From Volvox africanus (Eukaryota; Chlorophyta; Chlorophyceae; Chlamydomonadales; Volvocaceae): a DNA stretch of 64,000 nucleotides. Under the pieces are notes generated by a model. The model worked only from the letters and a program-made list of their open reading frames with translations. It was not told where the DNA came from and ran no database searches. The stretch spans positions 1,240,001 through 1,304,000 of the forward strand of contig BSDZ01000005.1 of the NCBI GenBank assembly GCA_030268105.1, read 5' to 3'. Below are positions 17,778 through 59,454 of this stretch, one piece after another (position 1 is the first letter of the stretch; the number at the start of each line of letters is the position of its first letter). A program made the position numbers and the translations under genes.

Positions 17778-17781
17778 AACC
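17767..17781 (-). other. Copia-1 primer-binding site (initiator tRNA-Met anticodon arm)
   Basis: Directly inside the 5' LTR the - strand reads GGTTATGAGCCCCGC. Its complement, GCGGGGCTCATAACC, looks like the anticodon arm of tRNA-iMet (loop CTCATAA). This fits half-tRNA priming as known for Drosophila copia, rather than priming from a tRNA 3' end. The ATG within it is the Gag-Pol start codon. Confidence 0.75.
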
Positions 17782-19664: not shown

Positions 19665-20018
19665 TGTAGCAGTCCCTTTCAGGATACTACTAGATTTGTG
19701 CGGAAGCGTAGCTTTTGTAGATTTAGAGATAGCTCGCAAGTAAGTTAGCGTCGCGAAATTGTACATCTATTGGGAATAATTGGTGACAGCGGAGTCTTGA
19801 ACTCCGAACAATTAGTAGCGTAATACTAAAATGTCAGGCCTTAGCTCTTCACCAGGGTGACTTTAATATTGGCTCACCTAGCCAAGATGTACGGCAATCT
19901 TCTTTGCCAATCGCGAAGTTTACTCGTAGTTAGTTTTCGGTTAGGCATCATGCTTATTGCATGATTGCCTACCGCTTTATCTGGGCCTATTTCTCTAAGG
20001 TAAATGTAGTTTCCTACA
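19665..20018 (-). repeat. Gypsy A 3' LTR
   Basis: 354 bp, TGTAGC...CCTACA, nearly identical to 33227-33579. A polypurine tract (CCCCCCCC on the + strand, 20021-20028) lies immediately inside. Confidence 0.93.
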
Positions 20019-20116: not shown

Positions 20117-22206
20117 TCACTCATATTCCTCGATGGCTTCCACCAGAGGATCTGATTCTTTCAGTGATGCCTCGGTTTCATATGTATTGTGAGTGGAATC
20201 ATATCCTTCCCACTTGATAAGGTACTCTCGACGAGTTTTACCTCTGCCCCCACGGATTGAGACATCCCGATGATCTACAATGGCTTCAACCATGTAGAAT
20301 GGTTCACCCTCAATAACGAGTGGTGAGGGTGGTTGTCGCTGAGCGTCCTCCTTGAATGGTTTCAGGAGTGACACATGAAAGACCGGGTGTAGGCGAGATT
20401 CAGCTGGTAAGCCAAGTTTTACCGCTGTTTCACCGATATTAGCGACAACTGTATATGGGCCGATGAATTTTGGCATCAGCTTCTTAGTTCCAGGTTTTTT
20501 AAGGTTAATATTCTTGGTACTTAACAGCACTTTTTGCCCAACCTCATAACGCACGGGGCGCCGAGAAGAGTCAGCATCCTGTTTTTGTCTAGATTGTGCA
20601 GCCTGGAGACAAGTTTTAGCGAGTTGCAATCGCTTGCACATGATGGTGGAGTACTCATCAGCAGCTGGCACTTTCGAGGTTCGACCATGCAGGTCAACCG
20701 GCACACGTGGTTGCTGGACACCATTAAGCAAAAATGGTGTCATACCTGTCGAACGTTGTTTGGAGTTATTGATAGCAAACTCAATCAACGGTAAGTGATC
20801 ATCCCAATCATCCTGATTAGGGGAGATATAGTGCCGTAATGTCTCTTCCAGTAAGCGGTTCATTCGCTCTGTTTGTCCATCTGTTTGTGGATGGAAGGCT
20901 GTGCTCATATGGAGGTGGGTGCCCAATAGGCGAAATATTTCCTTCCAGAAATTGCTTGTAAAGCGTGGGTCCCAGTCAGAGATAATGTTCTTTGGAAGGC
21001 CGTGCTGCCGGAATACAGTGGCTACAAAAAGGCGAGCCAACTCTTCCGCTCCTGCGGTCGTGTGTGTGGGAGCAAAGTGCGTCATTTTGCTCAGCCGGTC
21101 CACAAACACTACGATCGCATCATGCCCATTGCGAGTTGTTGGTAGCTGGGTTATCAAATCCATTGATATGCTCTCCCACACGGAAGAAGGTATGGGGAGC
21201 GGCTGCAGCAAACCACCCGGCTTAGTGTTGGTTGGTTTGTTATGCTGACATTGAGGACAAGACTTGACGTAGGCCTTCACGTCAGTATCTAGTCCAGGCC
21301 ACCAGTACGTTTGTGCGATCGCTTGTTTGGTGCGGTCAATGCCGCGGTGGCCAGCGCATGGGGTATCATGATACTCTTTCATGATGACCCATCGTAAGTC
21401 AGCGTGATTAGGGATGTAAATCTGGGACCCATTGTACCAGAAGTTACCCTTCTTTTTGAGCCGCAGCTTTGCTACCTTAGTTTTCGTGAGATTGGGATCA
21501 CCGTCATACCCGCGGATGATTCGGTGTCCTAAGTCGCTGTCAATCAGCGCGGCAGAAAGCAAGTTGAGCACCACGTCGTGGACCCGACTGATAGGGTCAG
21601 CTACGTTCACCCGACCAGGGCGATACTCCCATTTAAATGTGAAATGTTGTAATCGCTCCATCCAACGAGCTTGGCGGCGGGATAGCTTATCCACGCTTTT
21701 CTGTTCTTGGAGGTATACCAGTGGTTGGTGATCCATGATCAACGTTACATCACTGGCGCCTTCAAGGTAACAACGCCACTCTTCCAGGGCTAAGACAGTG
21801 CCGAGGCACTCTTGGTCTGTTGTCGAGTAGTTGTACTCTGCCTTATTGAATTTAGAACTGGTATAGGCGACAGGGTGGTCATCCTGCAAGAGGACGGCTC
21901 CTGTGCCATGTATTGAGGCATCAGACCAAACCGTGAAAGGTTTATCAAGCTCGGGGAGTTTAAGTACTGGTGCATTTGTCAAGGCATGCTTCACACCCTG
22001 GAAGGCTGCCTCGCAGGCTTCGGTCCAGTGGAAGGGCACTTTCTCACTGGTAAGGGTTGTGAGGGGGGCCACAAGGGAGGAATAACCCTGAATAAACCTC
22101 CTGAAATAATTGGCTAAGCCAAGGAACGCCCGCAGTCGCTTAATATCCGTGGGGACAGGCCAGTCTTTAATGGCTGTTACTTTGCAGTCGTCCACCTTTA
22201 AGCCTT
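20117..22206 (-). pseudogene. Gypsy A pol, 3' portion (RT end, RNase H, integrase, chromodomain)
   Basis: An open frame continues the reverse transcriptase interrupted at 22206. It starts with the RT thumb (GLKVDDCKVTAIKDWPVP), then RNase H (VWSDASIHGTGAVLLQ). The integrase zinc finger (HDTPCAGHRG and CPQCQHNKP) is followed by the integrase core (SMDLITQLP, IISDWDPRFTSNFW, HPQTDGQTER). The C-terminal chromodomain (EYLIKWEGYDSTHNTYE) defines a chromovirus and is thought to steer integration to modified chromatin. This half has no stops. It is severed from its 5' half by the 7.47-kb insertion of element B and so cannot be expressed as one protein. Confidence 0.92.
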
Positions 22207-22211
22207 CTTGG

Positions 22212-23035
22212 TGTTGTACCTCTCGTTCGCGTTTGCTCATAAGTATCTGCACGTCTGGAGACTATCGACACCGATGCGCGAGCACTTGCAAGTACAGCAA
22301 GGCAAGCGAGAGCAAACAGAGACAGCGGAAGACTTCAAGACGAAGAGAGATATAACTTACGGTCTTACAGATCGGAATGATGCAATGGACGAAATCGCCG
22401 TCAGCGCCGGAAGCAAGCAATCATCACGCGGCGGTGATTAGCGAAGTTCAGGCTTAGCTCGGGCTAAGTAGAATATCGTATAGCAATAGTAATGTAGAAC
22501 ACACAAGTGTTCTCCGGTATCGAATGTCTTGTCTAGCTTAGCCGTCCTTGCATCTGTTATACTTGCAGCATCGCAGTGCCGTACGATTCACATTAGGAGG
22601 CCGATCCTAGATGTGACAACCCTACTGCGTATGGGCGATGTCTACTCGTAACAACGTATAAGCCTTTCCGGCATTCGCATGATACAAGGGTCCGGATAAC
22701 GATATCCGGTTGCAGGGCATGTATCGCGACGAGGGCGGCGCTCTCAACGTGTGCTTAAATGAAGTAATATTATATCAGATAATATTACTTATCGTTTCGT
22801 AGCACGAGCATAATGCGCACTTCAATGATTCGGTCATTCATGCATGCTAGGCGGATTTGCCATGATGCGATGTCGCGATGGATAATGACAACATGCCAGA
22901 TGCATACATAAATGTATGCGAATACATTTATATCATGCAGATTCATTCATATGTAATGCGTTCATCACAAAAGCACTTCGCCTCATAGGATCGCGTCGAC
23001 CTACGCGTCGGCGGGAAATGAACCGTAGCACAACA
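22212..23035 (-). repeat. Gypsy B 3' LTR
   Basis: TGTTGT...ACAACA, 824 bp, with a polypurine tract (CCCCCCTCCC on the + strand, about 23041-23050) just inside. Related LTRs occur at 49543-50376, 50524-51136 (inverted, truncated) and 61011-61135 (fragment). Confidence 0.94.
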
Positions 23036-23094
23036 ATTATCCCCCCTCCCGTATGCAGCGTCCTCGCTGCATCATACAGCATCGACTGCAAGGG

Positions 23095-26000
23095 TCATTG
23101 GGCTTGCGTGGCACGTTTGCGGGCTTCTTCAAGCAGGGGTTTCATGTCCTGTGAGAAGTTGCGTGCCGGTTCCCATGAGTTGTGCTCGTCGGTATACCCT
23201 GTCCACTTAACCAAGTACTCGTGCACTGTTCGCTTACGTTGGTGTCGGCCCACACGACGCGCGCGATAATCTAACACCCGCTCCACATCGTAAAACTTCT
23301 GTTTACCAGCGATCCAGGTCTCGGGAACTGGTTCGATCGCTGCGGGGGCGTTAGCAGGCTCAGGGACGGGTCCCGTACTACGATACGGACGAACAAGCGA
23401 TATGTGAAACGTGGGGTGAATGGTCATATCAGTGGGCAATGCAAGCTCCACAGCCACATTCCCAACCATGCGCACGACAGGATACGGACCAATCCAGCGG
23501 GGTAAGAGTTTTCGGGATCCGTCGGCCAAGGAACGCAAGTTCTTGGTGCTTAGCAACACGAGTTGCCCCTCCGAAAACGTCACATCCTGCTTGGATTTGT
23601 TATAGTATTCCGTCGTTTGTTGCTGCGCCGCGTCCAAACACGACTTAGCGTCTGTGATTCGGGACATAAAAGACTTGGCAAAAAGTTTAGCAGCAGGCAC
23701 GTTCACTTCCAGCTCACGCCACACGGGTAGCGCGGGATGAAATCCGTAGTTAAGAAAGAACGGACTTTTGCCTGTAGAGCGGTTAACAGCATTGTTAAGC
23801 GCGAATTCTGCCGCAGTCAAATACGTATCCCAAACAAGTGGTGTGCGACCAGCATAATTGCGCAACATATCACCCAACGTGCGGTTTGTACGTTCGGTTT
23901 GACCATCAGTCTGCGGGTGATACGCCGTGCTCAGGTTGACACGCATGCCAACTAGTTTGCAGAGCGCTTCCCAAAACTTAGACGTGAACTGTCCACCGCG
24001 GTCCGAGATCACATTTTTGGGAATCCCGTGTAACCGAACCACATTATCGAAAAACAAACGTGCGGTTTGCTCAGCCGTGCAGGATGATGTGCATGGTGCT
24101 AGGTGAACCATCTTAGTCAGACGATCGACCATTACGAACATCGCATCGTATCCCCCCTCAGTTTTGGGCAGCGCGACTACGAAGTCCATGGAAACACTTT
24201 CCCAAGGCGCATCCGGGACAGGCAACGGTTGCAACAACCCATGGCCCTTACCGGACAAAGCCTTATTGCGCTGGCACAGACTGCATGTCTGGACGAAGTT
24301 CGCCGCATCCTTAGCCAAACGAGGCCACTAAAAGGAACGTTGCACCAAGTCGATCAATCGCTTGCTACCAGGGTGTCCTGCTAACGGGTCCTCGTGGAAC
24401 CGCGCAAGGATGTCGTAGCGTAGCACGTCGTCGTTCGGAACGACGATTTGCGTAGCTGCACCCTCCGTCCGTAGCCAAAGGCCATTCTGCTTGCGAAGGT
24501 TTTCTACATTAGCCGGGTCCGCGAACCAGGCGTCTGCGTTGTAGGCAACCTTCAACCGCTCCGCGAGGTCCGTCGCGATCGGTACCTCCTCGCTACGCGG
24601 CTGCACGACGGGCGCTGCCAAAATTGCAGCGTGTAGCGACGGATGTCGACTGAGAGCATCGGCAATATTCAATTTACCAGAAATATACTCCCAGGTGCAG
24701 TTGAACCTAGCTAGATATTCCATCCACCTAGCTTGACGGCGGTTCAACGTCGGAACGCTTTGCTAAAACGTTAGGGGCTTGTGGTCAGTCTTTAAAGTAA
24801 ACGGGCGTCCCTCGAGGTAACAGCGCCATTCCTTTAAAGCATGCAGCACGGCCAGAAGCTCCTGTTCCCCGGTGGTGTAGCGAATCTCCGCACCAGAAAA
24901 CTTCTTACTCGTGAAGGCGATTGGTCGCCCTTCCTGTAACAATACAGCGCCACTTCCAAATATTGAGGCATCAGACACTACCTCAACACGAAATGGCAAC
25001 GAGTAATCAGGGAATGCAAGGGTGACATCTTCGGCAATGATTCGTTTGAGCTCTTCGAATGCCTGCTGGCATTGTGACGTCCACGACTCGAGCGAAACGA
25101 AAACGCCTTTGCGAGTTAAGTTAGTAAGCGGGACCGCAATGATGGAATATTTTTCAATGAACTTTCGGAAATAATTGGTCAAGCCAAGGAACTTACGCAG
25201 CTCCGTGAGGTTCTGAGGCGCGGGCCAATCGCGAACCATGGCGACCTTCCGCGGGTCCATCTTCACACCGGTGGCCGACACAATGTGACCCAAATATTCC
25301 ACCTGAGGCTGCGCCCAAAAACATTTGGCGCGTTTAGCAAACAATTGCTCCCGCCTCATAACGTCGAGCACGAGCCGCAGATGCTCCAAGTGCTCCTCGC
25401 GCGTCTTAGAATAAACCAAGATGTCATCCAGGTAGCAAACAACGAACCTGTTGATAAACGGCCTAAACATTCGGTCCATAACCGCCTGAAACGTCGCAGG
25501 GGCATTAGTCAAACCAAACGATAGGACCGTATACTCAAAGTGACCGAAGGGCGTCCGAAAAGCGGTTTTCGGGATATCAGAGGCAGCGATGCGAATCTGA
25601 TTGTAGCCCTGTTGTAAGTCAATTGAGGAAAAATAAGCCGAGCCCTTAAGCTTATCCAACAGGTCGTCGACGCGTGGCAAAGGGTAGCGATTTTTCATCG
25701 TATTCGCATTCAACCCCCGGTAATCGATGCACATGCGCAAGGTCCCATCCTTCTTACCGACAAATAAAATCGGTGCAGAATACGGGGATGTGCTGGGGCG
25801 TATCATACCCTTCGCAAGCAAATCCGTCACCTGGCGCTTTACCTCGTCCAGCTCCAATGGACTCAACCTGTACATTGGCCGGGCTGTAGGCTGCGCTCCA
25901 GGCATGAGAGGGATTGTGTGATCAACAGGACGCATAGGTGGTAGGCCAGGGATATCTTTAAAGACGTCCTCATACTGCGACAGTAGGGCCTCAACCTCAG

Positions 26001-27156
26001 GATCCGCAGAAATCTGCGCGGTGGTGACACAACAGCTCACCCGCGGCCTCAAAAGCAGTCCGTGGGCACCCTTCCGTAACAAACGGACGGCCTCCTTACG
26101 CCCGACTAGCTCTGGTTCGCTTCGCGCGGCCATTGCGGTCACAGCGAAATTAACCATAGGCACCGCCTCAGTTTCGCCCTCCTTTGGTGTGACATGTTCG
26201 AACGACAGGAAAGGTACCTTAATCGACAGAGTACACTTGCACATATGCAGGGTTGCGGTCTCCATGTCGATGCGCGCGCGGTACTGTCGTAATGTCGACG
26301 ACCCCATTATGTACGGTGCAGTCTCTGCTAAGCCCTGCAGCACGTACGGCCGGGTCACAACACGCAAAGGGCCTATCGATAGGCTAAGGGTAATCCTGCC
26401 CACGATGGGATGCTTACCCCCGTCAGCAAGGGTAACCTGTGGACAATCAGACGACTCTGGGGACAACCCCAGCGCGTTCACCTCTGCGACAGAGATGAAG
26501 TCGTCGCTGGCACCGGTGTCAACAAGTGCCTTCAGAGTACGGCCATTCAAACCGATCTGAACCACAGGGACACGGTTATCTACGAGCGATTGCCCAGCAG
26601 ACAACGTCAGTGCACTTAAGGCGGGTCCGTAACCAACGGCACCCCCATCAGGAGCTTCGTACCAAACGTCAACCGAGTAGGATAGGCGTGGCCACGGAGC
26701 CAGCGTACCCTCCCAATCCACACCATTAAACAAAACGGTGCCCGGCTCGAATCGGTGGACATGCCGCATACCCCTTAACGATGCCTCTGCCTTGCGCCGA
26801 CAGAAAGCAGGGAGTAATACACATGCGGCAGTGCCTGGATATTGACGCCTACATCTCCTGTATATGGCCAACTGTTCCGACATCTCACGCAGAGACGAGG
26901 GGATGAACAAAACCACGTGGTTAGACAGATCGATAGACGACAGGGGACGGCAAGGTGTAAACAAATTACACAACGGGTCGAAGCAGAGAAGTCCCGTGCG
27001 TCCGTCAAGCGTGATGCGTCACGCAATGACTCGCTCGATGTGTCCAAGTACACAAGGCAACAATGCCTTAACGGCTGGCCATAAGGATGACCACCGACCA
27101 CGCGTTAGTTCGGAAATCCCAGGTGGTGCCCCCTCCACAGGAACCCGGGCAAGCCC
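23095..27156 (-). pseudogene. Gypsy B pol (methyltransferase-like region, protease, RT, RNase H, integrase, chromodomain)
   Basis: One reading frame follows the Gag-end UAG and holds, in order: the degenerate methyltransferase-like region ([18 protein letters not shown] instead of NPPY), protease ([13 protein letters not shown]), RT ([31 protein letters not shown]), RNase H ([15 protein letters not shown]), integrase (CQRNKA, SMDFVVALP, HPQTDGQTERTNR) and chromodomain (EYLVKWTGYTDEHNSWEP). Stops interrupt it at 27019-27021 (TGA), 24763-24765 (TAG in place of a Leu codon of sister copies) and 24328-24330 (TAG in place of Trp). The first is shared with copy D, so it predates the split of these copies; the other two are private. 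The copy is not autonomous. Confidence 0.93.
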
Positions 27157-28392
27157 CTATTTCGGCTGAGGTACAAACGGCGGCATTAGAGGGCAATCCT
27201 TCGTGGAATGGTTCTCCGCACACCGTAGACAAACGTTGGCCAATTTTCGACGCTCGAATTCGGAACGATTGCAATTCCATTTTGGCATAAATGTGTCGTC
27301 CGTACGAGTACGCTTCACGTTGGGGTCGGAACGCTGTGCGGCTGCCGACGACGGCGCACCACCACGCTTCCTGTTCCTAGCTGGGTCCGAGCTCGGACCT
27401 GCTCCTCCTGTACCACGGACACCCGAGCTAGCGCCCCCGCGCGCCTTGCGTTGCCCGTTGCTGCGTCGCGTCGCGGCAGTAGGCGTGGGGCGGGTCGCGC
27501 CGAGGTCCTGGTCGAGAGCTACAGCTTCCCCAAGCGGATCCTGCACTTGCACGGCATTTGCACGAGGGGCAGACTTGACTTCTTCCTCGCCGGCAAGGAG
27601 TCGTATCTCCGCGCCCTTAGCAAAAGCGACCAACGCGTCATACGACTTGATCTGCGCTCCAACCAAGTCAGTGGCGCACCATTTAGCCAAAAGTTTCGTT
27701 AGGCCTCGCCTAAACCAAAAGACACGCTCAGATTCGGTGAGGTCAGCAATGGGAGTCACAAGTGCTTCGAAGCGTGACTGGTACGCAGGTACATTTTCAT
27801 CCCGACGCATGTGGTAGCTACCGGCTGCCAAAACGTTACGAGCTTCCACATCGCGTGCTTGAACCTCAGTAGCGAATCGTGCAAGCAAAGCGGCGACCAA
27901 CTCGTCAAAAGTATAGCTGCCCCGGGCGTTGGTCCAATTGCGATACCAGTCCTTCGCTGCGCCCTCGAGGGTGTTACCAACGAAGAGACACCTGATACCG
28001 TCATTATCGCCACCATGAACAGCCTGGAGATACTTTTTAGCGTCACGCACGTACGCACGAGTTGCATCGGCTATGCTATGCCCTGGTGTCTTGTCGGTCA
28101 GCGAAATATTGAGCCTAGGAACGGGAATCGACAATCTCATCACCTCAGGGATGTCATCATGCCCTCGAGCTTGAGGTAATGGCAGAACCCTTGGTCCAGC
28201 AGTGTTGTCCATATTCGTGTTCACTGCTGAATGCGGCACAATTAAGTGAGCAGGGGTCTGAAGGAAAAGGGGCTCTTGAGTGGCTCGCGCGCCAACAGTC
28301 TCAAGACCTCTATCCGGTGCTCTAGCAGCCACAACAAAATCGGGTTGGCTAGCTAGGCTAGTGTGCGGTGTATCGTCGTGTTCCGCGGACAT
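27157..28392 (-). CDS. Gypsy B Gag
   Basis: 411 residues. The N-terminal third is variable. A retrotransposon-gag capsid segment follows around residues 115-270 (KKYLQAVHGGDNDGIRCLFV, AKDWYRNWTNARGSYTFDEL, YQSRFEALVTPIADLTESER). A basic Ala/Gly/Pro-rich linker leads to a CCHC zinc knuckle near the C-terminus (CLRCAENHSTKDC). The frame ends in TAG followed by G, with pol continuing in the same frame. Gag forms the particle that packages element RNA. The true N-terminus may lie upstream through a spliced leader (see 28393-28858). Confidence 0.88.
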   Translation of the reverse strand: MSAEHDDTPHTSLASQPDFVVAARAPDRGLETVGARATQEPLFLQTPAHLIVPHSAVNTNMDNTAGPRVLPLPQARGHDDIPEVMRLSIPVPRLNISLTDKTPGHSIADATRAYVRDAKKYLQAVHGGDNDGIRCLFVGNTLEGAAKDWYRNWTNARGSYTFDELVAALLARFATEVQARDVEARNVLAAGSYHMRRDENVPAYQSRFEALVTPIADLTESERVFWFRRGLTKLLAKWCATDLVGAQIKSYDALVAFAKGAEIRLLAGEEEVKSAPRANAVQVQDPLGEAVALDQDLGATRPTPTAATRRSNGQRKARGGASSGVRGTGGAGPSSDPARNRKRGGAPSSAAAQRSDPNVKRTRTDDTFMPKWNCNRSEFERRKLANVCLRCAENHSTKDCPLMPPFVPQPK

Positions 28393-28858
28393 GAAGCACG
28401 AAACGATACCCTAGGTTTGCGTAATAGAAGCCGACTTCTATCGCAAAGGCAAGAGTACAAAACAACTCGGTGAGCCTACCGACAGTACTCTTGAGAAGAT
28501 TCAGCAAATTCAGCAAGTAATTGCCCAGCTGAGTCCTGATCTCCGTAGTTTGGGCAATGAGAGTCGCCAACTGGTCCGGACGAAAGCCGGTCTCAGTCGC
28601 CGCGGCAAGCAATGCCGGTGCACTGAGATTACCTGCGACTCAGAGCGTACACTTACACAACAAGTGCAGCAATCTAAGCAAAAGCAATTAAACAATTACA
28701 AACCGGAAGTGGCGGCGTCCAAAACGGCGCGGCCTAAGTCTTCGGCAAAAGTATCTAGCGGTCCTCGTGGTTCGTCGCTGGAACTCGCCATAGAAAGAAC
28801 CTACTTCCGATTAGACAAAGAGAGACAGTTAGGCAACGAACCTGTCTCGATACCAAAT
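28393..28858 (-). other. Gypsy B leader, with possible spliced Gag N-terminus
   Basis: An upstream ATG (28788-28790 on the - strand) opens a short frame, MASSSDEPRGPLDTFAEDLG, resembling the N-terminal region of element C Gag. It ends at a TAA inside what looks like an intron (donor GTTTGT, acceptor GCAG, about 75 bp). Past the acceptor an open frame containing TGFRPDQLATLI follows, but this is not in frame with the main gag ATG, so a second event would be needed. Copy D keeps the same short frame. Confidence 0.35.
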
Positions 28859-29676
28859 TGTTGTACCTCTCGTTCGCGTTTGCTCATAAGTATCTGCACG
28901 TCTGGAGACTATCGACACCGATGCGCGAGCACTTGCAAGTACAGCAAGGCAAGCGAGAGCAAACAGAGACAGCGGAAGACTTCAAGACGAAGAGAGATAT
29001 AACTTACGGTCTTACAGATCAGAATGATGCAATGGACGAAATCGCCGTCAGCGCCGGAAGCAAGCAATCATCACGCGGCGGTGATTAGCGAAGTTCAGGC
29101 TTAGCTCGGGCTAAGTAGAATATCGTATAGCAATGTAGAACACACAAGTGTTCTCCGGTATCGAATGTCTTGTCTAGCTTAGCCGTCCTCGCATCTGTTA
29201 TACTCGCAGCATCGCAGTGCCGTACGATTCACATTAGGAGGCCGATCCTAGATGTGACAACCCTACTGCGTATGGGCGATGTCTACTCGTAACAACGTAT
29301 AAGCCTTTCCGGCATTCGCATGATACAAGGGTCCGGATAACGATATCCGGTTGCAGGGCATGTATCGCGATGAGGGCGGCGCTCTCAACGTGTGCTTAAA
29401 TGAAGTAATATTATATCAGATAATATTACTTATCGTTTCGTAGCACGAGCATAATGCGCACTTCAATGATTCGGTCATTCATGCATGCTAGGCGGATTTG
29501 CCATGATGCGATGTCGCGATGGATAATGACAACATGCCAGATGCATATATAAATGTATGCGAATACATTTATATCATGCAGATTCATTCATATGTAATGC
29601 GTTCATCACAAAAGCACTTCGCCTCGTAGGATCGCGTCGACCTACGCGTCGGCGGGAAATGAACCGTAGCACAACA
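28859..29676 (-). repeat. Gypsy B 5' LTR
   Basis: 818 bp; differs from 22212-23035 by a few substitutions and a 6-bp deletion. Confidence 0.94.
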
Positions 29677-29681
29677 CTTGG

Positions 29682-31579
29682 CTTACTTTGTGGCCAAGGA
29701 AGTGCAGTTCGAACCGGTTGAACTGACACTTTGACAATTTTGCCTTGTATTGGTGCTTTCGGAGCAAGGACAGTACCAAACGGAGGTGCTGTTCATGCTC
29801 GGCTGGGGTCTTACTAAAGACCAGTATATCGTCCAAGTACACTAGCACAAATTTGCCAATGTAGTCAGTGAAGACACGATTCATCACTGCTTGGAACATT
29901 GCAGGGGGATTGGTCAGTCCAAAGCAAAGTACCTTAAACTGAAACTGGCCCATGCCTGGGGCTATGAAGGCCGTTTTCTCCACATCCTCGGGAGAGATCA
30001 GTATTTGATGATACCCCTGCTGTAAGTCCAGGGAGCTGAAAATGGTAGCTCCTTGGAGTTGGTCGAAAAGGTCCGTAATATTGGGCATGGGATACCGCCG
30101 TTTGATGGTCAGTTTATTAAGCGCACGGTAGTCTAAGACAATGCGTAGTCCTTGCCCATTTGCCTTTTCGACAAAGAGAACTGGAGCCCCATAGGGTGAG
30201 GTAGAGGGTTCGATATATCCCTTATTGAGCAGTTCGGTAACTTGCTTCTTGACCTCTTGTTGCTCCAGTTGGGTGAGCCTATAGGCTCGTTTAGCGGGTG
30301 GTATGGCACCATCCACTAAAGGAATCGTGTGACCAATGTCCCGGTCGGGGGGGAGGCCTTGAAGGTCCTCGAATACATCCTTGTATTCCTCCAGTAATTC
30401 TGATAACTTCAAATTAGCTAGGAGATTATTCCCACCGCAACTGGGGTCAGGAGTTGGAGTGTGCTCCTCTGCTTGCACAAGTAGGAGATAACTCCGTGCT
30501 CCTTTAGCAATTCGTTTGCCTGCTGCTTTCGCAGATACCGTCTCGACAGTAGTCGCTGCATAAAGTGTTGCAGTGACATAGTTCATGAGGGTAATCGCAT
30601 CAAGGTTAGCGTCGATACCCGGGGAAGACCAAAGGGATGGCGTAAACGTATACACATCATTTGGCTTCTTATACACTGTCAGGGTATGAGTTGCCCAGCA
30701 CATTGTGGCTTTTCGTTTTCCTAACCAGTCATTAGCCAGGATAATATCAACACCTGGGACATCTTGCTTTAGAACAAGGAGTTTGACTGTGTCGCGGAAC
30801 TTGTCAATTTGAAGATTGGTAACAACTGAGCCCTCAATCAGTTCTGTGTTGCCATTAGCCACTTTAACTGAGCTGGTAAGTGTGGGTTTGAGAGCAAGGG
30901 CCATTTTCGTAACGGCTGTTAGGGATATAAACCCGTCTGCGGTACCTTTACAATTGGCACCGGAATCAGCCAAGACTTTGCAGGCTGTTTGGCACAGTTG
31001 AGCATCAAAGATCATAGAAGGTGTAGAACCAACTATGGAGTTCAAGTGCACGGTAGTGGACGGTCGGTCATACCATAGCTGGAGAGGCCATGGGACACCG
31101 GGCATAAGCTCCCGTACTCCTGTGCAACTTTTCTTCAGGAACAATTGTTTCCCTGGTGCATATGTTTTGATCAGGCGAAAGCCTGCTGCTCACATACTGT
31201 GCTCTATTGAGCTCCACTTGGGGACTACAAAGACTGCAGAGGTATTTTCTGGATCTTTGTGTTTGCAGGAGATATAGTGTTTTTGCCATTGAGCAATGTG
31301 ATTGTAAGGAGGATTAATCCAAGCAAACTCACCCGCAAGATTATGGGTCGCAAATGGGTTTGATGGAGAGGCAAAACGTGGACAGAGACTATTATTGCCC
31401 GAATCGTTACATGTGGCGTCAAAGGTAAATTGACGGCCGAGTTGGGTCTCAACCTGACGGAATTCATCAGGCCGGAACATCCGAGCAGTCTGAGGGCTGT
31501 CGGTCATGGGCAACACAAACTCTCCATCTGGTGCAACCAGTTTAACTGGTTCACATTCCTCCACACGTTTGCCAGGGTC
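29682..31579 (-). pseudogene. Gypsy A pol, 5' portion (methyltransferase-like domain, protease, RT)
   Basis: Immediately after the Gag-end UAG the same frame continues into about 130 residues with FTFDATCND, AGEFAWINPPYNHIAQWQ and TSAVFVVPKWSS. This resembles the fold and NPPY catalytic motif of phage-type DNA N6-adenine methyltransferases (NPPY codons at 31304-31315). A TGA at 31190-31192 interrupts its end. A retropepsin-like segment follows (KVLADSGANCKG), then RVT_1 with LDLQQGYHQ and the catalytic YLDD (VLVYLDDILVFSK). The frame is cut at RT residue motif LHFLGHKVSQ by element B. The domain's methyltransferase identity is a motif-based inference. Confidence 0.82.
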
Positions 31580-33178
31580 CTATTCGTGCATTTTAGATTC
31601 GAGCCGGGCAGCAAGCGCCAACTTCTTTTCCGCCTCAGCCTTGATCACCTTGGAACAGTCCACTACGTGGTCCGGCCAAGACTGGCCTGGCTTCTTAAAG
31701 CCATGGCAATAGCGGCACCGGGTACTAGGAGGCTTGTCAGAAGTGTGGTCGGTCCGGGGCTTCTTGTTCACGGACTGCCAGCCCTGTTGAAATCGGGAAA
31801 TAGGGCGTTTTTGGTAGGGATGTCTGGATTTAGGGGTGGTTACCGTAGCCGCTTTCAGCTCAACGGTGGCAGTCTTATCTTTCCCTGCCTTCCACCGGAC
31901 CTCTTGGCCGACTGCATATAGGATGCATTTATCTAAATCCTGCCAGTCCTTGCCCTCATCGTCGGTTGCACACCGACCCCGAAGTGTTGGAACTAAGCCT
32001 TTGATGTACCAGCTAATCTGGTCGGCTTTATCCATGTCCTTAGCTTCGCGTAGGACATCATGGAAGCGCTGTGTGTACTCAGCAACGGTTTCAGCAGTTT
32101 TCATGTCATATTCGTGAGAGTGCAAGCGATCCCTTGCTGCCATGGCAGTGTTGCGTTGCGTGTCCCCATATTGCAGGAGAAATGCCGCCCTTAAGGTTTC
32201 GCGTGTGAGGGGTTTCTTGCCCGACTTGTGCATCTCTAGGACATCTGCTGCCCAGACCTGTGCTTTGCCCGTTAAGAAGTACACTATGTGCTCAAATGGG
32301 TCCATGTTCATCAGGTCGAAATATTGCATGAGTACATTGAACTAGGACCGGGTGCAAGTGATGGTGCTATCCTTCTTCCCAGAAAATTTGGGGGGATGCG
32401 GAACCCGTCTATTAGGGCTTACCTCACTTGGCCGGCTGGATTTTGGGGCGGTTGTCTGAGAATCGCTACCCCCAGCTAGGTGTGCGGTTGCTTCCACCCA
32501 AAGGGACTGAACCTCTTCGAGTGTTGGCACCGGAACTAGGTGTTTCTCTAGGATGGCTTGCAGCGTTGTTTGCTGGAGGGCATCCTTAGGCAAAAGGGTT
32601 GCGATGCTCGACCCAGCGATTGTGGAAATAATATCTAGGATCGCTTTTTTGCGTGAGTCGGCCGCTTCAGATGATTGTGAACGCTCCGAAAGGCGTTCGA
32701 AAATCTGTTCTAATAGGGCTCGCGTGCGGTCCGTATCCGCGCGGAGGGCACCCATCTGATTTTCGAAGGACTCCTTAAGGTGCGTGATTTCGCTTTCTAA
32801 TGCAACAACACGATTATGTGTTGCGTTGCGCATTGTTTCTGCGACGTGTTGGGCCGCGCGCGTTTGTTCTGGTGTGCGCTGCGGAAAGCCATTGGGAGGT
32901 AACGCGACATCTCCTTCATCCGGCATTGGTTCTTGGGACCCGCGGATAATAGGAATATTATTATTAAAATTATTGGTGGGAATTACTGGAGCCGAAGGCA
33001 CCGTTTCCGTAGGTTCAATGTTTATCCGATGAGGTCGTCGATTGGCGGCTATGGCGGCTAAACGCTCTAGTCGCAAAATTTTATTGAGATTTTTACGTTT
33101 AAAACGTAAGAGTTCCTTCCGCGCTTTTGCTGCGGAGGATTTGTGGTTGTGGTGGGAGTGTCGCGTGGCATTGCGCAA
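31580..33178 (-). pseudogene. Gypsy A gag (one internal stop)
   Basis: The frame starts with ATG at 33178, 48 bp inside the 5' LTR, and reads a basic, Arg/Lys-rich N-terminus. It then has a helical region, a capsid-like retrotransposon-gag segment (FEHIVYFLTGKAQVWAADVL, YTQRFHDVLREAKDMDKADQ) and a zinc-knuckle variant (CRYCHGF...HVVDC). One TAG at 32342-32344 breaks gag between the N-terminal and capsid parts in the same frame, most simply a point mutation. The frame ends with TAG at 31580-31582, the conserved Gag/Pol boundary stop. Confidence 0.85.
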
Positions 33179-33226
33179 GTTTATCTCACCTGAGGAGGAT
33201 CGTTGCTCAGACCCTCGCTACCAATT

Positions 33227-33579
33227 GTAGCAGTCCCTTTCAGGATACTACTAGATTTGTGCGGAAGCGTAGCTTTTGTAGATTTAGAGATAGCTCGCAA
33301 GTAAGTTAGCGTCGCGAAATTGTACATCTATTGGGAATAATTGGTGACAGCGGAGTCTTGAACTCCGAACAATTAGTAGCGTAATACTAAAATGTCAGGC
33401 CTTAGCTCTTCACCAGGGTGACTTTAATATTGGCTCACCTAGCCAAGGTGTACGGCAATCTTCTTTGCCAATCGCGAAGTTTACTCGTAGTTAGTTTTCG
33501 GTTAGGCATCATGCTTATTGCATGATTGCCTACCGCTTTATCTGGGCCTATTTCTCTAAGGTAAATGTAGTTTCCTACA
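33227..33579 (-). repeat. Gypsy A 5' LTR
   Basis: 353 bp, near-identical to 19665-20018. The primer-binding site lies directly inside at about 33207-33224, complementary to a tRNA ending ...CTCGCTACCA. Confidence 0.93.
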
Positions 33580-33650: not shown

Positions 33651-33993
33651 TCAGGCACGACTGTTATGGCACGACTAATATGCCCCTGGAGGTCCAGGTT
33701 CTACCCCGACCGAGAGCGGGCCAAAGACCCTAACGTTAAGGGCAGGGTGCCCCCATGTCGATGGACGGTGACGACCCCAATTAAAGTGACCTGCGAGCTG
33801 ACCAGTAGCGGAGTTGACGCCTTAGTTGATTCGGCAGATTCCGCTAGATGCTGGTGGTGGGTGCTGAACCTGGGAAAACCACTGATTTTGGAGAAGTCGG
33901 CATGGGAGACTGGATGAGGGTGCCCCGAAACACCGGGGAAGGTAGGGACTGCCAGGTTAGTGGCCACGGGTGATGTACCCCCCTATCCTACAC
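33651..33993 (+). repeat. R1 tRNA-related SINE-like repeat, copy 3 (best preserved)
   Basis: It is bounded by an 8-bp direct repeat ACACTTGT (33643-33650 and 33994-34001), interpreted as the target-site duplication. The head has GGCACGACTGTTATGG (A-box-like) and GGTTCTACCCC (B-box-like). The body contains GATGGACGGTGACGACC. The terminus is CCCCCCTATCCTACAC. It inserted just beside the 5' LTR of Gypsy A. Confidence 0.78.
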
Positions 33994-35036: not shown

Positions 35037-35128
35037 ACGCATGGTTATGCCTTGTGTACGCTGCCGCCAGCTGGTAGGAGGCCGAATCCTTGCTTTGTCA
35101 TGCATGAACACATACATATACATATACA

Positions 35129-52559: not shown

Positions 52560-53599
52560 GGGCTTGCCCGGGTTCCTGTGGAGGGGGCACCACCCGGGAT
52601 TTCTGAACTCACACGTGGTCGGTGGTCATCCTTACAGCCAGCCGTGAAGGCATTGTTGCCTTGCGTACTTGGACACATCGAGCGAGTCATTGCGTGACAC
52701 ATCACGCTTGACGGACGCACGGGACTTCTCTGCTTCGATCCGTTGTGTAATTTGTTTACACCTCGCCGTCCCCTGTCGTCTATTGATCTGTCTAACCACG
52801 TGGTTTTGTTCATCCCCTCGTCTCTGTGTGAGATGTTGGAACAGTTGGCCGTTTATAGGAGATGTAGGCGTCAATATCCAGGCACCACCGCATGTGTATT
52901 ACTCCCCGCTTTCTGTCGGCGCAAGGCAGAGGCATCGTTAAGGGGTATGCGGCATGTCCACCGGTTCGAGCCGGGCACCGTTTTGTTTTGGATAATGGTG
53001 TGGATCGGGAGGGTATGCTGGCTCCGTGGCCAGGCACATCCTACTCAGTTGACGTTTGGATAATGGTGTGGATCGGGAGGGTATGCTGGCTCCGTGGCCA
53101 GGCACATCCTACTCGGTTGACGTTTGGTACGAAGCTCCTGATGAGGGTGCCGTAGGTTACGGACCCGCCCTAAGTGCACTAACGTTATCTGCTGGGCAGT
53201 CGCTCGTAGATAACCGTGTCCCAGTGGTTCAGATCGGTTTGAATGGCTGTACTCTGAAGGCACTTGTTGACACCGGTGCCAGCGATGACTTCATCTCTGT
53301 CGCAGAGGTGAATGCGCTGGGGTTGACCCCAGAGTCGTCTGATTGTCCACAGGTTACCCTTGCTGACGGGGGTAAGCATCCCATCGTGGGCAGGATTACC
53401 CTTAGCCTATCGATAGGCCCTTTGCGCGTTGTGACCCGGCCGTACGTGCTGCAGGGCTTAGCAGAGACTGCACCGTACATAATGGGGTCTTCGACATTAC
53501 GGCAGTACAGCGCGTGCATCGACATGGAGACCGCAACCCTGCATATGTGCAAGGGTACTCTGTCGATTAAGGTACCTTTCCTGTCGTTCGAACATGTCA
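52560..53599 (+). pseudogene. Gypsy D pol, 5' portion (methyltransferase-like region, protease)
   Basis: It continues in frame after the UAG, with the same early TGA as copy B (near 52695), then the degenerate methyltransferase-like region ([12 protein letters not shown]). A 68-bp tandem duplication (52990-53057 and 53058-53125) shifts the frame. The protease ([13 protein letters not shown]) follows and is cut at 53599 by element C. Confidence 0.85.
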
Positions 53600-53604: not shown

Positions 53605-54027
53605 TGTTGTATATGGTACCCACGAAGGGTGGTATCAAAAGATACCGGTTGTTGTGCCAGAGCCCGATTAAGTAGAGCCGCCGACTAGGTCGTACTTGAG
53701 AGACCATAAGGCCTCGAACCGGGCGTGACCTTCAGAAGTCACCACTACAAACGGAGATTCAGTGAACCAGGAACCAGATGTTCCACCATTTACCATTCAG
53801 GCGGTAAATGGCCCATTCCATACAGGTTATGGAGTAACCGACAGGTTCGGATGTTTCAGGAAGTCGGTTAGTATTGGTCGTCGACAGCCGAGACCAAATC
53901 CACAAATCGAATGCCAGATGGAAACATGAAACAGTTAATATGATAATTAAATATATTATATTATAAAATAATAAACAGATAATTATTATATCTTAATGAA
54001 TTACCGAAATGCATTAAGGATACAACA
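53605..54027 (-). repeat. Gypsy C 3' LTR
   Basis: 423 bp, TGTTGTATATGG...GATACAACA. A polypurine tract (TTCCCCCTC on the + strand) lies just inside. Confidence 0.95.
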
Positions 54028-54096
54028 ATTGTTCCCCCTCTAGATGCAGCGTCCCGATGCATGAAACGAGAGCAGACAGGTTGAGGTAGGACAGCG

Positions 54097-57000
54097 TCAG
54101 AGAGGTCCGTCCTTAGACTGTGCCCGCAGCCTAGCTTCATCAAGCAGGGGTTTCATGTCAGGGGTGAAGTTACGTGCCGGTTCCCAGCTATTGTGCTCAG
54201 ACGAATACCCAGACCACTTAACCAGGTACTCATGTACGTTACGCTTACGCCTGCCTTTGCCAACACGTCGTGCACGGTAATCCAGGATACGTTCGACAGC
54301 ATACAGGGTCTGCTTACCCGATAACCAGGTAGAGGGATTAGCTTCCGTAACAGGAGGGATGCTATCGTTAGCCTCAGGCAGAGTACCCCGATATGGACGT
54401 ACGAGAGATACATGAAATGTGGGATGAATGCGTAGGTCAGATGGGAGTTGTAACTCTACAGCCACCGACCCTACCATGCGTACGACAGGATAAGGCCCCA
54501 CAAAGCGCGGTAATAACTTGCGAGACCCATCAGCCAGGGAACGAAGGTTCTTCGTGCTCAACATAACCAGCTGGCCCTTGGTGAACGTGACGTCCTTTTT
54601 GGACTTGTTATAATAGTCCATAGCCCGTTGCTGTGCAGCTTCCAGGCAAGCTTTAGCGTCAGTTAGTCGGGACACGAAAGACTTAGCAAACGTTTTTGCA
54701 GCTGGAACATTTACGTCCAACTCCCGCCAAACAGGCAAAGCAGGGTTAAAACCGTAATTCAGGAAAAACGGACTATTACCAACGGACCGGTTAGTAGCGT
54801 TATTAATGGCAAACTCAGCAGCGGCTAGGTAGGTATCCCATGCAGTAGGGGTGCGTCCTGCAAAGTTACGGAGCATATCACCCAGGACACGGTTAACACG
54901 CTCTGTTTGCCCATCAGATTGGGGGTGGTAGGCGGTGGACAGGTTCACCCGCATTCCTACCAGAGTCCCCAGGGCGCCCCAAAACTTACTTGCAAATTGA
55001 GTGCCGCGGTCAGATACCACGGACTTGGGGACCCCATGCAAACGTACCACATTGTCGAAAAATAGACGGGCCGTTTGCTCAGCTGTGCAGGATGATGTCG
55101 TGGGGGCCAGGTGGACCATCTTGGTGAAACGGTCGACCAGGACCAGCACGGCATCGTATCCTCCCTCAGTTTTGGGCAGCGCAACAATAAAGTCCATAGA
55201 GACGCTTTCCCACGGAGCGTCAGGAATAGGAAGAGGTTGGAGATGCCCATGTGCTTTACCAGACTGGGCCTTATTGCGCTGGCACAGGTCGCAACAGAGG
55301 ACATAATTTTCGGTGTCCTTAGCCATGCGGGGCCACCAGAATTGACGCCGCAAAAGCTCTAGTAACCGCGTGCAGCCCGGATGCCCAGCAAGAGGGCCGT
55401 CATGAAAACGTGAGAGAAGTTCACGACGTAATGAATCGTCGTTAGGTACGACAATCTGACGGTGGGATCCTTCCGATCGGATCCATAAGCCATGCTCCTG
55501 TACCAAGTGCCCCGTGTTGTTGTGAATTGTGAACCACGGGTCGGCTGCATAAGCCTGTTTCAAGCGCTTGGTAAAATCGGAGGGCACGAAGTTAGGTTTT
55601 GCCTGAGACCTACTCCGTGTGCTTACCGCCAGAATGGCTGCATGCAGTGAGGGGTGCCTACTGAGAGCATCAGCTATGTTAAGTGAGCCGCTCAGGTACT
55701 CCCAATCAAAGTTAAACCGTGCCAGGTATTCCATCCAGCGGGCCTGGCGTGGGTTAAGGGAGGGCACACCTTGCAGAAACGTAAGGGGTTTGTGATCAGT
55801 CTTGAGGGCAAAAGGCCGGCCCTCAAGGTAACATCGCCATTCCTTCAAGGCATGTAGGACCGCCAGAAATTCCTGTTCCCCAGTGGTATAACGGGTTTCA
55901 GCCCCCGAAAACTTCTTACTCGTGTATGCAATGGGGCGTCCCTGCTGCAACAGAACTGCCCCCGTCCCATGTATAGATGCATCAGTTATGACCTCTACAC
56001 GGAACGGCAATGAGTAGTCAGGGAAGTGCAGGATAATATCATCAGAGATAGCACGCTTCAAAGCATCAAAAGCTTCTTGGCATGCGGGGGTCCAGGCCTC
56101 AGGTGAAGAGAAGGCTCCCTTACGTGTGAGGTTTGTTAGCGGTGCAGCAATGACTGAGTAGCGCTCTATGAACTTACGAAAGTAGTTGGTCAGGCCCAAA
56201 AACTTACGCAGTTCCTGAAGGTTGGAGGGCACTGGCCAATCCCGAACAACAGCAGTTTTCCGGGGGTCCATCTGTATGCCACCCTGAGACACTATATGCC
56301 CCAGATACTCCACCTGTGGTTGTGCCCAGTGGCACTTAGAACGCTTAGCATACAGCTGCTCACGCCACAGAACCTCAAAGACCAGGCGGAGGTGTTGTAT
56401 GTGCTCCTCACGGGTCTTTGAAAACACCAGGATATCGTCCAGATAACAGATGACGAATTTGTCGATGTATGGCCTGAAGATGCGGTCCATGACGGCTTGG
56501 AACGTTGCAGGGGCGTTCGTCAGTCCGAAACTAAGGACGGTATATTCAAAATGGCCAAACGGCGTACGGAAAGCCGTTTTAGGGATGTCAGATTCTGCTA
56601 TACGAATCTGATTATACCCCTGCTGGAGGTCAATAGAGCTAAAGAATGCAGAATCTTTTAGCTTATCCAGCAGATCATCGACGCGTGGGAGGGGGTAACG
56701 GTTCTTAACTGTTGCGGCATTTAACCCCCTATAGTCAATGCACATTCTCAGAGTCCCATCCTTCTTTCCCACAAACAGAATAGGGGCGGAGTATGGGGAT
56801 GTGCTTGGCCGTATCATACCTTTTTTCAGCAGCTCAGTAACCTGTCGTTTGACCTCGTCCAGCTCCAAGGGGCTTAGCCGATACATGGGGCGGGAAACGG
56901 GTACTGCACCAGGCACCAAAGGTATGGTGTGATCCACAGGCCGCATTGGAGGCTTACCAGGGACCTCCTGGAATATATCTGCATATTCCTGTAACAGGGC

Positions 57001-58167
57001 CTCAAGCTCAGGGTCAGTGGCATCAGCTGGGATAGAAGTTGCATTCAGGTGCAACTTGGGCCGTACTAGTAAAGCATGGGCCCCCTTGCGAATCATGTGA
57101 ACTGCTGCTTTTCTGCCAACAACTTCAGGTTCAGTGTGCTGACAGATAGCAGTGGTTGCATAATTAAAGCAAGGCGCAGGTGTCATCTGATCTGGTGGCT
57201 GTCCGGCAGTAGTAAAGGGTACCTTGCAGACTAGATTCCCCTTGCGCAGGCGCAAAGATTTAGCCTCATAGTCAAGGACAGCCCCATACTGTGCTAGCGT
57301 GGAAGAACCCAAGATATACGTGGCAGCGTCAGTTAGCTCAGGCAACACGTATGGGCGGACATTTAACCTTAAAGGACCTGCAGATAGACGAAGATTAACC
57401 TGCCCCAAGATAGCCTGCTTACCCCCATCAGCAAGGGTAACTTCTGACCAGGAGCATGGGCTAGGTTTCAGGCCAAGCTGCGTAACCACTGATGCCGAAA
57501 TGAAATCATCACTGGCTCCAGAGTCGGCTAGGGCGGTGAACGTACGACCTGCCGTACTTACGGTGATCAGAGGTACGCCAGCACCTATCAGGGCAGCAGC
57601 TTTAGGCAAGCAGAGAACTGAAATACAGGGTTCAGTCTCAGGCAAGCCCTCCTGAACCGATTTAGGAGCAGCAAACCAGACGTCAACAGAGTATGGGCTT
57701 CCAGGGAGTTGAACAACCTCCCCTGCCATATCAAGGCTATGGAAAAGAGCCGTCCCTGGATTAAACCTTAAGACCCGTTGCATTCCCGACAGAAAAGAAG
57801 GGTTGCGTCGGGACACATACTCAGGCAGCAAGATGCATGCTGAGGTATCAGGGTGTTGACGTTTGCATGCCCTAAAGAGAGCTAATTGCTTCTGTAGCTC
57901 GCAGAGTGAAGAGGGAGTGAACAAGATAGTATGCCCACCCAAGTTAGCGGAGGATAGGGGGCGACCTTGAGGCTCAAACAGATTACAAAAGCCATCAAAG
58001 CCGGCACGGACAGTTCGTGCATCAAAAGAAAAACGTCTCCCTATCACCTGCTCCACTTGGTTTAAAACAGAGGGCAAAAGAGCCCATACTGCACGGCACT
58101 TTGCTACCATCTGGCCCACAGCAAAGACCCCAGGTGGTGATCCCTCTATACCAACCTGGGCAAGTTC
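54097..58167 (-). CDS. Gypsy C Pol (reached through the UAG at 58168-58170)
   Basis: About 1356 codons open from the UAG to TGA at 54097-54099. In order: the methyltransferase-like region (GRRFSFDAR, LGGHTILFTPSSLCELQK, TSACILLPEYV), in which the NPPY motif of element A is replaced by TPSS; retropepsin ([12 protein letters not shown]); RVT_1 ([31 protein letters not shown]); RNase H (ITDASIHGTGAVLLQ). The integrase has an H2C2 finger (HDGPLAGHPG, CDLCQRNKA) and core motifs (SMDFIVALP, VVSDRGTQFASKFW, HPQSDGQTERVNR). The chromodomain is EYLVKWSGYSSEHNSWEP. Domain order and chromodomain identify a chromovirus. No AUG is well placed at the start, supporting expression as a Gag-Pol fusion. Confidence 0.93.
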   Translation of the reverse strand, partial: ELAQVGIEGSPPGVFAVGQMVAKCRAVWALLPSVLNQVEQVIGRRFSFDARTVRAGFDGFCNLFEPQGRPLSSANLGGHTILFTPSSLCELQKQLALFRACKRQHPDTSACILLPEYVSRRNPSFLSGMQRVLRFNPGTALFHSLDMAGEVVQLPGSPYSVDVWFAAPKSVQEGLPETEPCISVLCLPKAAALIGAGVPLITVSTAGRTFTALADSGASDDFISASVVTQLGLKPSPCSWSEVTLADGGKQAILGQVNLRLSAGPLRLNVRPYVLPELTDAATYILGSSTLAQYGAVLDYEAKSLRLRKGNLVCKVPFTTAGQPPDQMTPAPCFNYATTAICQHTEPEVVGRKAAVHMIRKGAHALLVRPKLHLNATSIPADATDPELEALLQEYADIFQEVPGKPPMRPVDHTIPLVPGAVPVSRPMYRLSPLELDEVKRQVTELLKKGMIRPSTSPYSAPILFVGKKDGTLRMCIDYRGLNAATVKNRYPLPRVDDLLDKLKDSAFFSSIDLQQGYNQIRIAESDIPKTAFRTPFGHFEYTVLSFGLTNAPATFQAVMDRIFRPYIDKFVICYLDDILVFSKTREEHIQHLRLVFEVLWREQLYAKRSKCHWAQPQVEYLGHIVSQGGIQMDPRKTAVVRDWPVPSNLQELRKFLGLTNYFRKFIERYSVIAAPLTNLTRKGAFSSPEAWTPACQEAFDALKRAISDDIILHFPDYSLPFRVEVITDASIHGTGAVLLQQGRPIAYTSKKFSGAETRYTTGEQEFLAVLHALKEWRCYLEGRPFALKTDHKPLTFLQGVPSLNPRQARWMEYLARFNFDWEYLSGSLNIADALSRHPSLHAAILAVSTRSRSQAKPNFVPSDFTKRLKQAYAADPWFTIHNNTGHLVQEHGLWIRSEGSHRQIVVPNDDSLRRELLSRFHDGPLAGHPGCTRLLELLRRQFWWPRMAKDTENYVLCCDLCQRNKAQSGKAHGHLQPLPIPDAPWESVSMDFIVALPKTEGGYDAVLVLVDRFTKMVHLAPTTSSCTAEQTARLFFDNVVRLHGVPKSVVSDRGTQFASKFWGALGTLVGMRVNLSTAYHPQSDGQTERVNRVLGDMLRNFAGRTPTAWDTYLAAAEFAINNATNRSVGNSPFFLNYGFNPALPVWRELDVNVPAAKTFAKSFVSRLTDAKACLEAAQQRAMDYYNKSKKDVTFTKGQLVMLSTKNLRSLADGSRKLLPRFVGPYPVVRMVGSVAVELQLPSDLRIHPTFHVSLVRPYRGTLPEANDSIPPVTEANPSTWLSGKQTLYAVERILDYRARRVGKGRRKRNVHEYLVKWSGYSSEHNSWEPARNFTPDMKPLLDEARLRAQSKDGPL

Positions 58168-58884
58168 CTAGTGGTCCTTACCCTTATTTTTCTCCGCCCC
58201 CAGCATTGGGCAGGAGTCAACCCTATGTTGGTCGGAACCGCAACGGAGGCACATCCCATGTTGTTTACGAAAATGGAACTCCCGTCTAGTACATTTGAAT
58301 GTGGTTAAATATTCCGCTAGGTTCTGCTTGGGCCCCTTCTTCTGCACGTGGCCCCCTTTTGGGGCCAAGTGCCTCCCCTGCTGTCCGCTGCCCCTCTTAG
58401 ACTTACCGGCGCCCTTAACCTGCCGCGGCTGATCCTCGTGCCCGGTGATGCCTGGACGAACGGATGCAGCCCGCGGTTTTTTGGTCGGGGGCGCCGGGGT
58501 CTCCTCGTCAGGGTCGTCGCAGGCCATGTCCTCGTCCTCATGTCCAGTATGAGGAGGCCCAGGTGGCCTGGAAGAGGTGCCCGCAACAGCAGCACAAGTT
58601 GTTGCGGCAGCAGCGGGAGCCATCCCAGGAATATCCACGGCACCAGGTGTCAAATGGTTTGACACCAACGCTTGGATGCCTTCGATGAACTTCAAAAATT
58701 TTGAAGTCCGCGCGTGAAGTTGATTTGCGATGGATCGGAGTGACTGGGCAGAAGTGCCGCTCCGAAGGGTCTGAGGTGTTGACACGGTGGTAGCCGCAGC
58801 GAAAATGGCGGCGCTCAGCTCCTCAGGCAATGTCTCCATGTCCAGAGGGATGTCGGCAGGAGGAAGATCGTGGTCGATGTCCAT
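58168..58884 (-). CDS. Gypsy C Gag
   Basis: 238 residues starting MDIDHDLPPADIP. The N-terminal half is helical (LPEELSAAIFAAATTV, LRSIANQLHARTSKFLKFIE). A Pro-rich acidic middle leads to a very basic segment and a CCHC-like knuckle (CLRCGSDQHRVDSC). It is much shorter than B-family Gag and I see no clear capsid segment. TAG at 58168-58170 is followed by G, and Pol is in the same frame. Confidence 0.88.
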   Translation of the reverse strand: MDIDHDLPPADIPLDMETLPEELSAAIFAAATTVSTPQTLRSGTSAQSLRSIANQLHARTSKFLKFIEGIQALVSNHLTPGAVDIPGMAPAAAATTCAAVAGTSSRPPGPPHTGHEDEDMACDDPDEETPAPPTKKPRAASVRPGITGHEDQPRQVKGAGKSKRGSGQQGRHLAPKGGHVQKKGPKQNLAEYLTTFKCTRREFHFRKQHGMCLRCGSDQHRVDSCPMLGAEKNKGKDH

Positions 58885-59031
58885 TTATAAAAGGGCAGCT
58901 TGAGTGGCTTGAGCGCGTTGCGCGGTTAGAGTGGCTTGAGCAGTTACCACAGAAAGACTTGAGAAGGCTTGAACGATTTCAGCGGAAGACTTGACGAGAC
59001 GTCCCAGGGAGGAACGGTCTCGATACCAGCT
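58885..59031 (-). other. Gypsy C leader with primer-binding site
   Basis: 147 bp between the 5' LTR and the gag ATG. The tRNA primer site TGGTATCGAGACCG starts three bases inside the LTR, complementary to a tRNA ending ...CTCGATACCA. This fits an initiator-Met-type 3' end. Confidence 0.75.
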
Positions 59032-59454
59032 TGTTGTATATGGTACCCACGAAGGGTGGTATCAAAAGATACCGGTTGTTGTGCCAGAGCCCGATTAAGT
59101 AGAGCCGCCGACTAGGTCGTACTTGAGAGACCATAAGGCCTCGAACCGGGCGTGACCTTCAGAAGTCACCACTACAAACGGAGATTCAGTGAACCAGGAA
59201 CCAGATGTTCCACCATTTACCATTCAGGCGGTAAATGGCCCATTCCATACAGGTTATGGAGTAACCGACAGGTTCGGATGTTTCAGGAAGTCGGTTAGTA
59301 TTGGTCGTCGACAGCCGAGACCAAATCCACAAATCGAATGCCAGATGGAAACATGAAACAGTTAATATGATAATTAAATATATTATATTATAAAATAATA
59401 AACAGATCATTATTATATCTTAATGAATTACCGAAATGCATTAAGGATACAACA
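59032..59454 (-). repeat. Gypsy C 5' LTR
   Basis: 423 bp. The one difference seen from 53605-54027 is C instead of A in AACAGATMATTATTA. Confidence 0.95.

Follow-up and report, generated by a model that had tools for sequence, protein, structure and literature searches.

A Dam-like adenine methyltransferase domain in Ty3/Gypsy chromoviruses of Volvox africanus, with motif IV kept in one family and lost in others

The stretch of DNA described here (the window) comprises 64,000 nucleotides of the Volvox africanus genome (GenBank assembly GCA_030268105.1, contig BSDZ01000005.1, positions 1,240,001 to 1,304,000) and contains the retrotransposons A to D, each with a domain resembling DNA adenine methyltransferases (Dam). 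In A, Gag and a UAG codon are followed by this domain, which is about 136 residues long, and then by protease, reverse transcriptase (RT), RNase H, integrase, and chromodomain; C has a Gag frame of 238 aa, a UAG, and a Pol of 1356 aa. The order typical of Ty3/Gypsy chromoviruses (protease, RT, RNase H, integrase, and a C-terminal chromodomain) is found in a single frame in C and in pieces in A and B, together with TG..CA long terminal repeats (LTRs) and target duplications of 5 bases at the flanks of all three, although the integrase (rve) match of A, at 24.7 bits, is below its cut-off of 32.6. An identity as DIRS elements was ruled out for A, B, and C by their DDE integrase matches and direct LTRs and by Pfam scans of the three, in which no tyrosine recombinase was found. 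An in-frame UAG followed by G stands at the Gag/Pol boundary of all three chromovirus families, which suggests that programmed readthrough is their common Gag-Pol strategy. In A, this codon is TAG in 19 of the 20 copies examined, including the one in the window, and TTG in the other. Just upstream of A, positions 33678-33977 and 35128-35427 are almost identical and repeat in direct orientation over at least 300 bases, at a distance of 1450 bases; this is possibly a short non-autonomous element.

The motifs of the domain in A are held by a stop-to-stop frame of 129 aa (31190-31579, minus strand), and their positions are collected in Table 1 with those of the other features. The domain does not end with this frame; it continues past 31190, via GKQLF and PWPLQLWYD, up to the pre-protease linker, and of the 26 copies counted there, a single one has the TGA that closes the frame, which the copies L003 and L017, for example, lack. 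A sequence-only reading of the window had already quoted these motifs for A, with NPPY at exactly the position found, as well as FSFDA and SACILLPEY for C and xPSS for B, C, and D. All are present as stated, and the strand can now be set as minus for A; the domain extends past the lower boundary given there, to about 31067. Phage Dams of PF05869 (e.g., those of Proteus phage Privateer and Escherichia phage 121Q) share with A the F-x-x-D segment, the conserved cysteine, W-x-NPPY-x-x-I-x-x-W, and a P and G-x-x-x-F series. They differ in being free-standing, in scoring far higher against Pfam (93 and 111 bits in the two that were scanned), and in having no C-K at the place where the Gypsy domains carry it, a pair not seen in any of the seven phage Dams aligned. 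In 13 Gypsy rows, some of which are closely related, residues G61, C66, C105, and K106 (numbered as in A) do not vary; B has R for K106. C66 is the counterpart of the phage cysteine. Since the C105-K106 pair sits where the helix after motif IV ends, on its far side, it could plausibly belong to a binding surface distant from the active site.

Table 1 Features of elements A to D in the window (positions are those of the window)
Feature	Position	Strand	Remarks
Element A 5' LTR	33226..33579	-	1 mismatch in 354 against 3' LTR; flanking duplication ATATC (5 bases)
Element A Gag region	31583..33217	-	window copy has in-frame TAG at 32342-32344
Gag/Pol UAG of A	31580..31582	-	next base G; probable readthrough stop
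Dam-like domain of A	31067..31474	-	residues 36-171 after the Gag UAG
FTFDA of A	31415..31429	-	F-x-x-D in phage Dams
NSLC of A	31382..31393	-	cysteine kept in 6/7 aligned phage Dams
NPPY (motif IV) of A	31304..31315	-	context W-I-NPPY-N-H-I-A-Q-W
CKHKDP of A	31250..31267	-	C-K in aligned Gypsy rows (B: C-R)
VVPKW of A	31214..31228	-	strand after motif IV
In-frame TGA in domain, window copy of A	31190..31192	-	private stop
A linker, protease, and RT	29677..31066	-	LADSGA of protease at 30956-30973; interrupted by B insertion
A RNase H, integrase, and chromodomain	20117..22211	-	on far side of nested B
Element A 3' LTR	19665..20018	-	pairs with 5' LTR
Element B	22212..29676	-	nested in RT gene of A; duplication CTTGG
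Gag-Pol UAG of B	27157..27159	-	G next
Dam-like domain of B	26650..27018	-	open frame starts at 27018 in this copy; FIPSS at 26893-26907
Element C	53605..59454	-	frames open throughout; inserted in D; duplication CACCA
Gag-Pol UAG of C	58168..58170	-	in-frame stop; G next
Dam-like domain of C	57658..58089	-	FSFDA at 58018-58032; motif IV FTPSS at 57907-57921
Dam-like domain of D	52560..52988	+	damaged copy; FIPSS at 52809-52823

Several lines of comparison make it almost certain that the domain is homologous to Dam methyltransferases, as the sequence-only reading had proposed. The domain of A matches PF05869 (Dam) at E 9.2e-6, its sole Pfam match, and phrog_111 at E 2.2e-6; it aligns with a C-type copy at 29% identity over 159 aa (E 2e-21). 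A profile of A and its ENA relative P0001 scores 97.7% (E 1.7e-12) against a profile of phage Dams whose rows were chosen for their match to A. Structure comparison of A supports an S-adenosylmethionine (AdoMet)-dependent methyltransferase fold, and no unrelated profile scored better, so that neither finding that would have spoken against the earlier proposal was made. The best solved-structure match of A is CAPAM/PCIF1, at 10-17% identity, and C has the same match more weakly; none of 1065 Foldseek matches against the PDB reached E 0.001, and searching the PDB by sequence gave no relative. The C family is linked to Dam through A: alone, it scores 0.3% against the phage Dams and 99.4% against A. 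Pfam scans of B and C gave no PF05869 match, no protein matched the C query at E 0.01, and exact peptide patterns from a 196-aa A domain found no match in viral contigs. Weighing against the assignment, the PF05869 scores of A (25.9, 24.8, and 24.0 bits) and of P0001 (26.4), which the protein database lists with PF05869.17, are under the curated cut-off of 28.1 bits, and because of this the domain is called homologous to Dam rather than a filed member of the family.

The families differ in the fate of the active site. NPPY and F-x-x-D are both intact in A and in P0001. In B, TLDG stands at the F-x-x-D place and NPPY is lost; C keeps FxxDA and SACILLPEY without NPPY. Motif IV was thus lost in B, C, and D, with intermediates that form a decay series across families. 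The Asn and the P-Y of motif IV are needed for methyl transfer in amino-methyltransferases, and because they are lost in B, C, and D, transfer should be abolished there. C, which is without the motif, has fared well in the 141 Mb of V. africanus genome searched for copies. For A, 150 of 496 candidates were scored and gave at least 58 copies of the 129-aa piece, 95-100% identical with full cover and no stop inside, at least 11 of them in open frames longer than 1000 aa. With C as query there were 2231 candidates, of which the best 150 were scored; every one of these is at least 97% identical, and more than 60 are part of a frame exactly 1356 aa long. C is more abundant than A, and both counts are lower bounds.

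Judged from sequence divergence in three comparisons, the domain is clearly under constraint, at a level equal to or somewhat below that of the protease. When C is compared with B, nonsynonymous divergence (dN) is 0.44 in the dead domain, with synonymous sites saturated (pS 0.86), against 0.38 for the protease, 0.11 for RT, and 1.10 for the linker (24 codons). A and P0001 are 62% identical in the domain, 58% in the protease, and 88% in RT, with the Dam motifs unchanged; C and P0004 are 60% identical in the domain, 73% in the protease, and 44% in the linker. This constraint, together with the abundance of C, lends support to the earlier suggestion that the domain persisted as a dead yet useful part. 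Recent A copies say little about selection: their ratio of nonsynonymous to synonymous polymorphism (pN/pS) is 0.82 for the domain, 0.89 for linker and protease, and 0.60 for RT, and changes are mostly singletons. These values come from 26 copies of an alignment of 32; L005 and L013 were dropped because they differ at many sites and have gaps beyond the domain, and L008-L010 and L070 because they duplicate L002 and L064 exactly or nearly so. None of the 32 copies, all picked at 95% identity or more, has a change in NPPY, which is not significant by itself, as only about one would be expected at this level of polymorphism by our estimate.

The explanation that we favor, and hold to be reasonably likely, is that a phage-type N6-adenine methyltransferase was captured at the N terminus of Pol in an ancestral chromovirus, remaining active in A and being kept as a dead domain elsewhere. 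A chromovirus ancestral to these algal families would have gained the bacterial or phage-type enzyme directly behind the Gag UAG. Because the UAG limits the domain to the Gag-Pol product, its synthesis would depend on readthrough, and it should reach the particle together with Pol. The domain of A is probably catalytically competent; it would then bind AdoMet and methylate adenine. Its likeliest substrate would be the element's own cDNA inside the particle, a choice that we make tentatively, with packaged RNA as the main alternative. In the C lineage, where methyl transfer would have been lost, the constraint left on the dead domain argues for a structural or binding role: a second function, in Gag-Pol assembly or nucleic-acid binding and perhaps acting through the Gypsy-specific C-K region, could keep the fold.

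Alternatively, the domain could be a pseudo-enzyme in every family, a structural or nucleic-acid-binding part of Pol in which the NPPY of A is a relic. The success of C without the motif speaks for this, as do the residues that are invariant across the Gypsy rows where NPPY is not, and the copy-level data, which give no signal of selection on catalysis. We nevertheless consider it unlikely, given that the Dam-diagnostic motifs are intact in both A and P0001 despite 38% of domain residues differing.

The origin of the domain can be approached through an unrooted tree of 21 domains, made up of 10 Gypsy rows, 4 local DIRS domains, and phage Dams. A branch with support 100/98 separates the 10 Gypsy rows from all others, and one capture for the Gypsy families is very probable on this topology. 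If the tree is rooted on the phage side, A with P0001 (84/92) comes first, followed by L055 (80/51, weak), L054 (96/96), and the C group (100/99). Elements of the DIRS type with a Dam-type domain occur in the same genome (L021-L050, e.g., L041:1396-1905 and L022:1426-1935), and in 27 of 30 loci read their motif IV is CPPL rather than NPPY, because of which the DIRS lineage may have lost or altered catalysis too. It could be argued that the Gypsy domain came from a DIRS retrotransposon already bearing it, and not directly from phages or bacteria. In favor of this, the genome contains many copies of DIRS elements with RT, RNase H, and methyltransferase, and Gypsy and DIRS domains fall on one side of a branch in the tree, with support of 49/79 that neither shows nor rejects the grouping; the four DIRS domains are on a long branch, and the tree program warns of long branches meeting. 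Against it, A scores only 0.4% against the DIRS methyltransferase profile and fits the phage Dam profile as given above, a contrast that is only suggestive with 6 DIRS rows from one genome and phage rows selected by their match to A; the DIRS profile itself scores 95.2% against the same phage Dams. The CPPL motif and the position of the DIRS domain, after RNase H, also count against a DIRS source, which we regard as doubtful. A Gypsy capture separate from that of DIRS is favored, without proof.

A further possibility concerns the substrate: the domain of A could be an RNA adenosine methyltransferase acting on the element's own RNA in the particle, at a cap-adjacent or internal A, as CAPAM acts on host mRNA. 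The CAPAM/PCIF1 structural match points this way, as do PCIF1-like proteins of giant viruses, which occur among the viral matches of the domain. Particles of LTR elements package RNA. However, the sequence profiles favor phage DNA N6-adenine methyltransferases. CAPAM is a cellular mRNA-cap enzyme of much greater size, with about 490 residues solved, and its first rank may only reflect that no solved relative from PF05869 turned up by sequence. We therefore hold the RNA enzyme to be improbable. Chance resemblance is hardly credible and was rejected: although NPPY is a short motif when taken alone and Pfam scores the domain below its cut-off, two profile libraries, the profile-profile comparison, and the fold agree.

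If the domain of A does methylate DNA, the consequences could extend to the host. In chlorophytes such as Chlamydomonas, N6-methyladenine (6mA) is found on active genes and 5-methylcytosine is confined to transposons (PMC12695648). In the V. africanus genome, 8 exon pieces match MT-A70; they lie at three places (contigs C8, C9, and C11) and are consistent with host adenine methylation. It is conceivable, though a long shot, that A supplies a 6mA writer of its own that marks fresh cDNA, by which new insertions would be taken for active chromatin and avoid being silenced, and that sister families later gave up the writing step but kept the dead enzyme as an obligatory particle part. Where the host group has 6mA on its active genes, such an element-borne writer would, if true, be a direct route past silencing. 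The GATC content gives no usable signal (internal region of A, 16 seen and 22 expected; of C, 12 and 19), and the LTRs of A, B, and C contain 0, 3, and 1 GATC sites.

Methyltransferases borne by retrotransposons are a recurring and unexplained theme. Dam-type domains are known in DIRS elements with the order RT, RNase H, methyltransferase (PMC3266345, PMC3783388). These elements resemble A in combining a retrotransposon Pol with a Dam-type domain, and both kinds are found in this genome; DIRS elements have a tyrosine recombinase, whereas the Gypsy families have LTRs, protease, DDE integrase, and chromodomain, with the domain before the protease and NPPY kept in A. KnitGypsy-Dnmt3 of Klebsormidium carries Dnmt3 in a Ty3/Gypsy Pol, reportedly under purifying selection, and Dnmt3 is also present in dinoflagellate DIRS elements (PMC5890265). 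Like A, KnitGypsy-Dnmt3 has captured a DNA methyltransferase into Pol, but of the cytosine-5 type, whereas that of A is adenine-type and phage-like, with descendant families that lack the motif. A cytosine methyltransferase was rejected for the families described here, as no such Pfam match was found in the scanned pieces of A, B, and C. An orchid Ty3/Gypsy element has likewise gained a nucleic-acid modification enzyme, AlkB, but this is an eraser of RNA N6-methyladenosine in a separate open reading frame (PMC9289625), and a ParB-methyltransferase protein is found in a brown algal Sola1 transposon (PMC12477816). Among the literature matches listed, none describes a Dam domain in Ty3/Gypsy; subscription papers and Repbase were outside the search, so a prior mention is possible, and PMC6338049 contains one ambiguous sentence. 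One genome here holds an intact adenine-type active site, intermediates, and a numerous dead family, all at the same place in Pol, and therefore the use of the enzyme to the element, and what keeps the dead domain, become directly testable.

Elsewhere in the window, an open frame of 1649 aa (12855-17804, minus strand) has tandem repeats (LPMVEPLEQSAAAAIE) between zinc knuckles and protease and is, by our reading, a Copia-type polyprotein. Long tetranucleotide-type microsatellites lie at about 5940-6270 and 8010-8270, one frame of which reads (YLSI)n.
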